A DNA stretch of 64,000 bases from Anaerolineales bacterium (GTDB taxonomy: Bacteria; Chloroflexota; Anaerolineae; Anaerolineales; UBA6663). This document shows, piece by piece, positions 2,294-32,829 of this stretch. Location of the stretch: NCBI GenBank assembly GCA_020845955.1, contig JADLEU010000013.1:1-64000 (forward strand), written 5' to 3'. A program made the position numbers and the translations under genes. Numbering within the stretch: the stretch's first letter is position 1; each line of letters starts with the position of its first letter. A model generated the notes under the pieces. The model had not been told where the DNA came from. It saw only the letters and a program-made list of their open reading frames with translations, and made no database searches.

Positions 2294-3988
2294 GTGGCAT
2301 CTTCTTTGCGTTGGATCCGCCGCTCGATCGCCACGTTTGCCTGGCCAGCCGGCGTGCGCCGTCTCGTCGCGTGCTTGGGCTTCGCCGCGCTGTTCGCCAG
2401 CGCCTGCCGCCCGCTGAGCGCCCCGCCGGCCGCCACCGCGGCGGCCGTGACGATCAGCATTCAAGTGGACGGCGACGTCGCCGCTTACGCGCTGCCTCCA
2501 GGCCTGACGGTCCGCGAGGCCGTGGCCCACGCCGGCATCACCCTGGGCGAGCTCGACCGGCTCACGCCACCGGCCTTCACCATCATCGCCGACGGCGCCG
2601 CCGTCGTGATTACGCGCATCACCGAGACGTTCGAGACCGAGCAAGTCGTCCTGCCGTACAGCTCCGAGATCGTGCACAACTCAAGCCAGCCCGGGGGCGA
2701 ACGCCGCCTGCTGCAGGTGGGCCAGACCGGCCTCGAAGAGCTGACCTATCGCACCGTCTTTGAAGACGGCATACAGGTCTCGCGCAGCATCGTCCGCCGC
2801 GTGATCGTCACCAACCCTGTGCCCGAGATCATCATGGTCGGCACTCAGGGTTCCTTTACGCTCGTGCCCATCAGCGGGACGCTAGCGTATATCAGCGGCC
2901 GCAACGCTTGGGTCATGCGCGAGAATACCGGCCAGCGCCTGCCGTTGACCACGGCCGGCGACCTCGACGGGCGCGTCTTCGACCTCTCGCCCGATGGGCA
3001 ATGGCTTCTCTTTACGCGCGAGGTTACCCAGGCCAGCTCGCAGAACTTCAACACGCTGTGGGCGGTTTCGACCCTGCCCATCACTGCCACGCGCACCACC
3101 CCCTTACCTTTCAGCCTGCCCATCAGCAACGTGCTGTATGCCGAGTGGTCGCCCCTTCAGCCGCGGACCTTTGTTTACTCCACGGCCGAGCGGATTCCGC
3201 GCGCGCCTGGCCGGCAGGCCAACAATGATCTGTGGCTGGTGCAGTGGAGCCAGAGCGCCAGCCGCCGGCTGACCATCACAACGACCCAGCTGCTCGACAC
3301 CTCGGCGGGCGGTCTGTATGGCTGGTGGGGGACCGGCTTCGCCTTTGCGCCCGATGGCCGCACGCTGGCCTATGCTCGCGCCGATTCGGTGGGCCTGCTC
3401 ACCTACCAGCTGGGCCGCCGGTCGATCACGGCCACGGTCACCATGACGGAAGTGGCGCAGTTCACGCCGTACAACACGCACGGCGATTGGGCCTGGTATC
3501 CGCCGCTGCGCTGGGCGCCGGGCGGCATTCTGTATACCATCGCCCACGGCCCGCCAATCGGTCTGGAGGCGCCCGAGGACTCGCCCGCCTTCGACCTGGC
3601 TGCCCTGACCATGCCCGGGGGCCTGCAGTTCAAACTCATTCCCCGAGCCGGCATGTTCGCCAATCCAATGCCGTCTCCGCCGATCATCACGGCCCGCGGC
3701 GAGACGAGCTACCGGGTGGCATTCCTGCAGGCCACTGACCCCAACAACTCTCCATTCAGCACCTATCGTCTGGGCCTGATGGACCGCGACGGCAGCAACG
3801 CCCACCACCTCTTTCCCCCTGAAGGTCAGGCGGGCCTGAGTGCCAACGAGGTCGTCGCCTGGTCGCCGGATGGCCAGCTGATTGCCGTGGTCTACCAGGG
3901 CAACCTCTGGCTGCTCGACCCAGACACCGGCCTGAACCAACAAATCACCGGCGATGGCCTCAGCGCCCAGCCTCGTTGGGCGCGCTGA
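2294..3988 (+). CDS. Lipoprotein with DUF348/G5-like N-terminus and WD40/TolB-like beta-propeller C-terminus
   Basis: 'ISIQVDGDVAAYALPPGLTVREAVAHAGITL' is DUF348-like; 'RRLLQVGQTGLEELTYRTVFEDGIQVSRSIV' is G5-like; repeated 'LSPDGQWLLFTRE', 'FAPDGRTLAYARAD', 'WSPDGQLIAVVYQG' blades. GTG start. Confidence 0.7.
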   Translation: MASSLRWIRRSIATFAWPAGVRRLVACLGFAALFASACRPLSAPPAATAAAVTISIQVDGDVAAYALPPGLTVREAVAHAGITLGELDRLTPPAFTIIADGAAVVITRITETFETEQVVLPYSSEIVHNSSQPGGERRLLQVGQTGLEELTYRTVFEDGIQVSRSIVRRVIVTNPVPEIIMVGTQGSFTLVPISGTLAYISGRNAWVMRENTGQRLPLTTAGDLDGRVFDLSPDGQWLLFTREVTQASSQNFNTLWAVSTLPITATRTTPLPFSLPISNVLYAEWSPLQPRTFVYSTAERIPRAPGRQANNDLWLVQWSQSASRRLTITTTQLLDTSAGGLYGWWGTGFAFAPDGRTLAYARADSVGLLTYQLGRRSITATVTMTEVAQFTPYNTHGDWAWYPPLRWAPGGILYTIAHGPPIGLEAPEDSPAFDLAALTMPGGLQFKLIPRAGMFANPMPSPPIITARGETSYRVAFLQATDPNNSPFSTYRLGLMDRDGSNAHHLFPPEGQAGLSANEVVAWSPDGQLIAVVYQGNLWLLDPDTGLNQQITGDGLSAQPRWAR

Positions 3989-22971: not shown

Positions 22972-23210
22972 CCGGCCTTCGGCCTCTGGAGCACTGGCGC
23001 CATACGCCGGACCCATCACGGCGCGCGTTGGGCACCTGGCGTTGACCACCCGCTTGTCCTAGGCGGCAGCGATCAGCCTGGATAAGAACGCGCCGAGGAC
23101 GTTGGGCAGGCGTTCGCGCGACGGCGCTGGCATATTATGCTCGTGCTGCGCAACCGCGAACCGGGGCTGTTGGCCGCCGAATGCCATCCGCCGCGAAGCA
23201 GGAGCAAACC

Positions 23211-24300
23211 ATGTCCAACGGCAATCTGTCTCAGCAGCCGCGCCTCCTATTCTTCGGCAGCGTGATGGTGCTGTTTGTCGGCATGGGTCTGTTCCCGGTC
23301 CTGCCGCTTTACGCCGCGGAGTTGGGCGCATCGCGCATCACGATTGACCTGCTGTTCTCCCTGTGATGTACGCCGCCAACTCGGCCGGTCCCCTGGCGGT
23401 GGGCTGGCTCGGCCCGCGCCTGGGACACCCCCGGCTGTTTATTGCCACGGCCCTGCTCAGCCTGCCGGCGGCGCCGCTGGCAGGTCGGGTCACGGCGCTC
23501 TGGCAGCTCATGCTGCTGACCTCCATCCTCTGATTTTCGGGAGGCGTCCTGGTCACGCTGGCCAACGTGTGGACCGGGATGCTGGTCGCGCGCCAGCGGC
23601 GCGGGGCATCTTTCAGCCGTCTATCATTGGCCAGCCCGTTGGGGGCCGTGGTCGGCGGGTTTGCGGTCGGCCTGCTGCTCAAGTGGTCGGGCTACTCGGT
23701 GATGTTTGGGGTGCTGGCGTTCGTCTGGGCTGGCCTGCTCGTCATCGGCCTGCTCCTGCGGCCTCCCCCCGCCACCGCGCCCCCGAAAGCGATGGCCGCC
23801 TCACCAGCGCCGGCGCGCCTCGTCCGCCGCTTTGGCTGACTGCTTGGACTAACGCTGCTGTCCACGGTCGGCATCAGCGTGACGCAGCTTGGCCGTTCGA
23901 TGTCGATGCAGGCGCTTGAATTCTCGGCCAGCCTGGTCGCGAGCACCGCCACCGTGGACGGGCTGGCGGCGATTCCCGCCACCCTGCTCCTGGGCCGCCT
24001 GTCAGATCGCCTAGGGCGCGCCCGGCTGCTGGCGGGCGCCATGGCTCTGGCCGGGCTGGCCCCTACTCCTGGTGCATGCGGCGGAGGCCTGGCACTTCTG
24101 GCTGGCAGCCGCGCTGTCGTTCGCGGCCCAGAGCGCCAGCCGTGGGCTGAGCACGGCCCTGGCGTCTGACCTGCTGGCGCACGAAATCCTGGCGCGCGGC
24201 CTGCCGCTGGTGAACCTGGTCAATGCTGGCGGCGGCAGCCCTGGTGGGCGTCACTGTCGTAGAACCGCGGCGCCTGGTATGCCCGCCTCGTGTCCCCGCT
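23211..24300 (+). pseudogene. Decayed MFS transporter
   Basis: Contiguous MFS-like protein over ORF pieces 'MSNGNLSQQPRLLFFGSVMVLFVGMGLFPVLPLYAAELGASRITIDLLFSL', 'MYAANSAGPLAVGWLGPRLGHPRLFIATALLSLPAAPLAG..', 'VWTGMLVARQRRGASFSRLSLASPLGAVVGGFAVGLLL..', 'LLGRLSDRLGRARLLAGAMALAGLA'. Interrupted by a frame change near 23366, TGA at 23531 and 23837, and a second frame change near 24060. Confidence 0.8.
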
Positions 24301-24383: not shown

Positions 24384-25643
24384 TCACACGAATTCGCGGA
24401 AGACGCGATTGCCCAGCAGGCGCCCCGCCGGCGTCAGGCGCGCTCCCGCCTCATCCCACGCCAGCAGCCCCAGGCCCCGCAAGTGCCGCAGCCTGCGGCC
24501 ATAGGCCGCGGCCAACGTGGCGCCAAACCGCGCTTCGAAATCTGCGCCGCCGACCCCCTCCGCGGTCAGCCGCAGCCCCAGCAGCATGGTCTCACCCATC
24601 TCGTCGGCGCGCGTCTGCCGCGTGCGCTCGACCGCCGCCGGCGAAAACGGGAACTCGCCCACCACGCCATGCTCCAGCCGCGCGATGTACGCCCCGGGGG
24701 CCAGCACATTGGAATACCGCCAGCCCGCCGCGCACCCATGTGCCCCGGCCCCCAACCCCAGGTACGGGCGGTTGCGCCAGTACTGCAGATTGTGACGACA
24801 TTGATAGCGGCCGGGGGCGAGAAGTCGGAGGTCAGAAACCTGCGGGTCTGACCTCCGACTTCTGCCCTCTGCCTTCTCTGGCAGCGCCCAATTCGAGATC
24901 TCATACTGCCCGTACCCGTGGGCCGCCAGCAACTCCCCCGCCCAGCCATACATCTCGGCCGCCAGGTCCGCATCGGGCATTGGCAGCAGTCCGCGCTGCA
25001 CCCACGACCGCAGCGGCGTGCCGTGCTCTAGCGAGAGAGCATACAGCGATAGATGTTCGGGCTCCAACGCCAACACGCGCAGCAGGCTGGCCTGCCACAT
25101 CGCCAGTGTCTGGTGCGGCGTCCCAAAGATCAGATCCAGGTTGAGGCCGTGGCTGGCGCGGTCAAACCCGGCGGCCCTTGCCAGCGCCACCGCCTGCCGG
25201 ACGTCCTCAAAGCTGTGCAGCCGGTCCAGCAGCCTGAGCTCGGAGGCGTGCGTGGACTGAACCCCAAACGACAGCCGGCTCACGCCCAGCGCCCGCAGCC
25301 CCAGCAGATAGGCCGCATCCACCGTGCCGGGGTTCGCTTCCAGCGTGATCTCACAATCGGTCGTCAACGCAAACGCGCCGCGCAAGACCGCGAAGATGTC
25401 CTGGTACACCAGCAGCGGCAGCAGCGACGGCGTGCCGCCGCCGAAGAAGATCGTGTGCACCGGCCGGCCGGCCGCCGCCTCGCCCACTAGCCGGATCTCC
25501 CGCGCCAGCGCGCGGGCGTAGGGCGCCATCAAGTCGTCCAGCCCGGCAAAGGTGTTGAAATCGCAGTAGGCGCAGCGAACCTGGCAGAAAGGGATAGCAA
25601 TGTAGATACTGAGATTTTGTGGCTGACTTTCCGGCCTGCCCAT
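24384..25643 (-). CDS. hemW: HemW-like radical SAM protein (coproporphyrinogen III oxidase-like) containing a palindromic insert
   Basis: 'IPFCQVRCAYCDFNTFAG' (CxxxCxxC), 'HTIFFGGGTPSLL', 'ITLEANPGTVDAAYLLGLRALGVSRLSFGVQS', 'GLNLDLIFGTPHQT', 'QCRHNLQYWRNRPYLGLGAGAHG'. Confidence 0.92.
   Translation of the reverse strand: MGRPESQPQNLSIYIAIPFCQVRCAYCDFNTFAGLDDLMAPYARALAREIRLVGEAAAGRPVHTIFFGGGTPSLLPLLVYQDIFAVLRGAFALTTDCEITLEANPGTVDAAYLLGLRALGVSRLSFGVQSTHASELRLLDRLHSFEDVRQAVALARAAGFDRASHGLNLDLIFGTPHQTLAMWQASLLRVLALEPEHLSLYALSLEHGTPLRSWVQRGLLPMPDADLAAEMYGWAGELLAAHGYGQYEISNWALPEKAEGRSRRSDPQVSDLRLLAPGRYQCRHNLQYWRNRPYLGLGAGAHGCAAGWRYSNVLAPGAYIARLEHGVVGEFPFSPAAVERTRQTRADEMGETMLLGLRLTAEGVGGADFEARFGATLAAAYGRRLRHLRGLGLLAWDEAGARLTPAGRLLGNRVFREFV
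24820..24863. repeat. Perfect 17-bp inverted repeat inside hemW
   Basis: AGAAGTCGGAGGTCAGA - AACCTGCGGG - TCTGACCTCCGACTTCT; adjacent degenerate heptamers TTCTGCC/CTCTGCC/TTCTCTG at about 24860-24880. Confidence 0.92.
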
Positions 25644-32782: not shown

Positions 32783-32829
32783 GCCGCTTCGTCAAGGCCA
32801 GCGCAGTGCGCTGGCCTTGACGAAGCGGC
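32783..32829. repeat. 47-nt near-perfect palindrome (23-bp stem, 1-nt centre)
   Basis: GCCGCTTCGTCAAGGCCAGCGCA-G-TGCGCTGGCCTTGACGAAGCGGC. Confidence 0.95.

Follow-up and report, generated by a model that had tools for sequence, protein, structure and literature searches.

A heptamer-repeat palindrome in frame in hemW of an Anaerolineales bacterium, at a linker that unrelated repeat families occupy in many relatives

The hemW gene of the window, as we call the whole 64,000-nucleotide stretch of Anaerolineales DNA analysed here, contains a 69-nt in-frame insert that is built as a palindrome of degenerate heptamers, and the linker in which it lies is a hotspot struck by unrelated heptamer families in many lineages. 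It is very likely that a heptamer-repeat palindrome entered hemW in frame, in the manner of the Rickettsia palindromic elements (RPEs), and is tolerated there in a permissive disordered loop of about 23 residues. The original prediction, according to which a repeat had jumped into the gene and was tolerated, named the object correctly and was largely sound in its reasoning, the jump being the part that we infer; the recurrence at a single loop is what is added here. The features concerned are the following:

24384..25643, (-) strand: hemW, 419 aa, an ORF with no internal stop and a reading frame that is intact through the insert
24777..24794, (-) strand: HNLQYW, the HNxxYW heme-binding motif of HemW, residues 284-289, 8 residues past the insert
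24816..24884, (-) strand: in-frame 69-nt insert (23 codons) separating NWA from PGRYQ, from alignment with 32 relatives; absent from L075/G001
24819..24866, (-) strand: codons of residues 260-275, the sole internal segment predicted to be disordered (pLDDT < 50, AlphaFold model)
24820..24836, (+) strand: left arm of the perfect 17-bp inverted repeat, AGAAGTCGGAGGTCAGA
24847..24863, (+) strand: right arm of the perfect 17-bp inverted repeat, TCTGACCTCCGACTTCT
24864..24884, (+) strand: more degenerate heptamers beyond the stem, GCCCTCTGCCTTCTCTGGCAG, read from the sequence

The protein was identified as HemW both by an equivalog-level score against the NCBIfam HemW profile TIGR00539 (253.7, cut-off 205.4) and by the presence of HNxxYW, the heme-binding motif in HemW (PMC10320005, PMC11834973). 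Radical_SAM and HemN_C domains were found by domain search, and structure comparison gave HemN (1olt, TM 0.78) as the best solved fold. AlphaFold, whose model has a mean pLDDT of 91.8, places the disordered segment between a strand ending at residue 253 and the helix 283-289 that bears HNLQYW, and predicts that the insert forms the only internal disordered loop of the protein, directly ahead of the HNxxYW motif. Adjoining hemW, at 23200-24290 of the window, is a transporter-like (MFS-like) coding stretch that runs across several frames with stops, and which is either a decayed gene or the result of sequencing errors in the assembly.

With its bounds set against the common HemW linker NWA-[KR]PGxx-CxHN, the insert codes for 23 residues, LPEKAEGRSRRSDPQVSDLRLLA, relative to the usual K-P-G-x-x linker, or for a net gain of only 17 residues if measured against the 11-residue linker of the nearest relative. 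An insertion of about 21 residues had been predicted; the insertion itself was borne out, and its size is corrected to 23, the following P (PGRYQ) having been omitted. The insert consists of two facing arrays of degenerate heptamers (GGAGGTC/AGAAGTC), in which the predicted 17-bp inverted repeat with a 10-nt loop is indeed perfect (arms complementary at 17/17 positions) and the predicted heptamers TTCTGCC, CTCTGCC and TTCTCTG are all present, with TCTGCCC and TCTGCCT lying outside the stem. DNA folding of the palindrome gives z = -6.6, which no dinucleotide shuffle equals, RNA folding of the linker also gives z = -6.6, and the 16-mer core of the palindrome occurs 3 times in the window vs 0.3 expected. 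Both arms hold the same two units in mirror order, which is weak evidence for fold-back copying, a process that would give such an order. Elsewhere in the window, the sequence at 32783-32829, GCCGCTTCGTCAAGGCCAGCGCA, is a perfect palindrome of 23 nt around a 1-nt centre.

A search for copies of the element in the rest of the genome and in relatives had been proposed, and copies of its family were found in both. A 21-mer of GGAGGTC units, with 3 mismatches or fewer, has 8 matches in G000, the genome of the window, 74 in its sister G001 and 67 in G007. Pattern searches, the only means by which copies in G000 were found, located one family copy in frame in a helicase-like ORF (C336, SDLRPPTSNPEPPASDLRPPTS) and one between transporter-like and Lrp-type genes (C144), as well as a different heptamer family in frame in a MalT-like ATPase (LQPSSFSLHPSR), all of these genes being named from their translations. 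About 30 loci of the window's family are present in the sister genome, in which a palindrome of the same build as the hemW element was found at C14:78563 (TTGGAGGTCAGAAGTCGGAG / CTCCGACCTCTGACCTCCAA, loop 15). No other convincing heptamer array was found in the 64-kb window, even at a relaxed threshold, and the wider idea of an intergenic repeat therefore rests on other contigs.

Alignment of orthologues makes the insert lineage-specific, since the closest HemW found, that of G001 (= L075; 73% identical), shows no repeats in its 11-residue linker, while the next nearest (G002) has a different array at the linker. An element unique to hemW and present as a conserved protein loop in all orthologues is ruled out by the copies elsewhere and by the short linkers of the sister and of most relatives. 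Among 116 Anaerolineales HemW, the linker ranges from 4 to 40 residues and holds heptamer arrays in 41, from at least six repeat families, which by labels assigned by eye are GGATGAA (A, 11), GTCGAAA (B, 7), GACCGTA (C, 6), CAGTGAT (D, 2), GGAGGTC (E, 2) and others (13). On a quick HemW tree, built without the linker residues and mostly from MAGs, array presence requires 19 changes vs 27-39 in shuffles, pointing to some phylogenetic signal for arrays as a class, whereas family identity among the array-bearing rows requires 24 changes, about as many as shuffles need on average (23.8), and so carries no such signal. At least 23 separate array-bearing clades were counted, weak branches included, on the assumption that a linker of up to 7 residues is the ancestral state and cannot be regained.

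Close pairs of loci give the same picture in DNA: L119 and L137 are ~93% identical over several kb, yet one has a 75-nt array where the other has 15 nt (a 60-nt difference); L087 and L167, 92% identical ahead of the site, have 90 vs 15 nt; and L100 and L115, ~88% identical, have array B vs array A at the same site. A second hemW loop, ~60 codons past the first site, also holds heptamer arrays, usually of another family than that at site 1, and L085 has a third array near the hemW start (569-606). The second-loop arrays are:

L085, 1371-1405
L103, 3968-4007
L122, 1418-1458
L139, 3918-3961
L125, 3965-3996

Arrays are far denser in hemW than around it. Across 80 hemW loci, 38 lag-7 arrays were found in 97 kb of hemW vs 15 in 418 kb of flanks, a 10.9-fold higher density (p = 1e-16) with the flanks of the same loci, rather than equally flexible loops of other proteins, as background; at lag 6 there was 1 array in hemW and 3 in the flanks. 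The lag-7 arrays of hemW concentrate at the linker and the second loop. Further in-frame copies, for which a check had been suggested, were found in hemW of relatives and in numerous genes besides. An 800-kb stretch of G077 holds 62 lag-7 arrays; predicted coding DNA covers 90% of it and contains 25 of these, so arrays avoid genes. In-frame arrays were present in ~20 protein genes of this stretch, including those for an FGGY kinase, MoeA, a methyltransferase, a Cas6 protein, HemW and MutL (right ahead of its C-terminal domain), and a fused glycyl-tRNA synthetase alpha/beta gene with four such arrays (C3:572354-575458, L317:12354-15458). Near position 1500 of L185 and L194, GGATGAA-type arrays adjoin terminator-like GC stems that have T runs, and those of L185 form inverted pairs around such a stem, which suggests that arrays gather at gene ends.

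A perfect GGATGAA array would have TGA at every third unit in any given frame. Of the 11 family-A hemW inserts, at least 10 have a sense codon (GGA, AGA, GAA, AAA) at the would-be TGA, which is evidence, drawn from codons, that these inserts are translated. Units of genomic family-A stretches vary at the TGA positions too, with an open frame in 16/44, so that some of the codon changes may predate insertion. Frames are open in all HemW read except that of L112 (~3740-3860, MAG fen_1038), where a linker array of ATCGTAA units puts TAA in frame, meaning either a broken hemW or an assembly error.

The number of family copies in a genome is linked to the family found in its hemW, with medians of 64 vs 6 copies in genomes with and without hemW family A (p = 1e-4), 15 vs 1 for family B (p = 0.007) and 46 vs 1 for family C (p = 4e-4), counts that include the hemW copy itself and p values that ignore relatedness. 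When pairs are corrected for relatedness too few remain to establish the link; those for A and C agree and those for B do not. The uncorrected pattern is consistent with a source of arrays in the cell's own repeats. The window element belongs to a class of short degenerate 7-nt arrays spread through Anaerolineales genomes; such arrays are probably copied or captured from repeats that the cell already has, perhaps by a fold-back or template-switch mechanism, and probably survive only as stop-free insertions of a multiple of three in exposed loops. In HemW the element would be translated as a disordered loop that lies after the radical SAM barrel and before the HNxxYW helix, at a place that appears to be unusually permissive, with the insert close to neutral and selection on the frame keeping it open. 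That different repeats lie at the same hemW spot is apparently owed to the protein's tolerance of a floppy loop.

Tolerance by itself would not lead one to expect that family-A arrays are palindromic in 9/11 cases in hemW vs 9/44 in genomes at large (p = 3e-4), an imperfect comparison, as the genomic set came from a pattern search. The excess may reflect inverted pairs entering as a unit, hairpins made on site by fold-back, or a useful stem. The loop could be a true target, to whose codon position heptamer palindromes are directed or at which they are regenerated time and again, with an mRNA stem, or a disordered loop next to the heme-binding motif, favoured whatever its sequence, and this we regard as rather unlikely. 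It is less likely still that the palindrome is kept for an mRNA hairpin acting in hemW, for example by slowing ribosomes after the barrel and before the heme-binding part, with the sequence free as long as it folds. Such a hairpin would fit the palindrome excess and the strong stems, several other linkers having z < -5; selection for it is weakened by the many arrays at the same site (families C and "other") that barely pair, and most HemW have no array and a linker of 4-10 residues, left-arm sense-codon changes of family-A inserts are often unmirrored in the right arm, and the second-loop arrays seen were read as direct arrays.

One old inherited array, whose units were later rewritten or exchanged (as other arrays recombined with it or hemW alleles were transferred) and which was lost in places, would explain the common frame and right-hand end of family-A inserts from scattered lineages and the phylogenetic signal of arrays as a class. 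We find it hard to credit, since the short KPGxx/KPNxx linkers that represent the usual state occur here and there among lineages with arrays and split these into the clades counted above, a return to such linkers by exact loss is unlikely, and L119 and L137 differ despite their near-identical DNA. An ordinary variable low-complexity protein loop, with DNA that only seems repetitive, would account for the range of linker lengths, and has almost no chance of being correct: it is already contradicted by a period of 7 nt rather than 3 (54 arrays at lag 7 vs 4 at lag 6 in 515 kb) and by the occurrence of these heptamers between genes in the same genomes, and the perfect inverted repeat of the window also speaks against it. 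Insertion and tolerance of a heptamer-repeat palindrome remains the reading that we prefer.

RPEs are short stem-loop repeats of 105-146 bp that occur both between genes and in frame in conserved protein genes, the product of which tolerates them (PMC2229807). The same pattern is seen here, with the hemW insert and C336 in frame and C144 intergenic, but the hemW insert is only 69 nt long, the hosts are free-living Chloroflexota (Anaerolineales) and not Rickettsia, and heptamer arrays of many unrelated families share one site, whereas RPEs are one conserved family. Perfect inverted repeats are also known within translated genes of nematomorph mitochondria (PMC6649704), where, in contrast to the added loop of HemW, both arms code for conserved protein.

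Short palindromes dispersed between genes are reminiscent of REP/REPIN sequences, from which the hemW element differs by its heptamer build and by a genome without a Y1 transposase domain match. Mobilisation of the REP/RAYT type was rejected, since PF01797 (Y1 transposase, RAYT) has 0 matches in G000 and few in some array-rich genomes (1 in G001, 1 in array-rich G034). MITEs are marked by terminal inverted repeats and a target-site duplication; the hemW element has an inverted repeat, no duplication was evident in empty/filled pairs read by eye, and neither a mobilising enzyme nor fixed element ends were found for the hemW arrays.

Repeats with 7-nt units also occur in cyanobacteria as STRR heptamers. 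TAACTGA repeats of Beggiatoaceae, cyanobacteria and Bacteroidetes are found at many loci per genome, mostly intergenic and sometimes within ORFs, as direct repeats with one dominant heptamer and with in-ORF copies mostly at protein ends (PMC4679880). The Anaerolineales arrays are likewise degenerate tandem 7-nt units at many, mainly intergenic loci per genome, and the CAGTTAT/CAGTGAT family at hemW linkers is close to the complement of TAACTGA units; however, the unit in the window is GGAGGTC/AGAAGTC, and the arrays often lie in internal loops as inverted pairs, a single genome having several families. The hemW element resembles RPEs in the way it works and heptamer arrays of the TAACTGA kind in its build, and by sequence belongs to neither. 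No literature on heptamer arrays in Chloroflexi was found in a search that took in few subscription journals.

The hemW linker offers a natural experiment on repeats that add residues to a conserved protein, with one loop, dozens of lineages, several unrelated families and empty sites in close relatives, and it carries what was seen in Rickettsia over to free-living bacteria and heptamer arrays. The findings suggest that in-frame repeat insertion is common across Anaerolineales genomes. "Insertions" in Chloroflexota protein alignments can be repeat-encoded, which makes them poor markers of descent.
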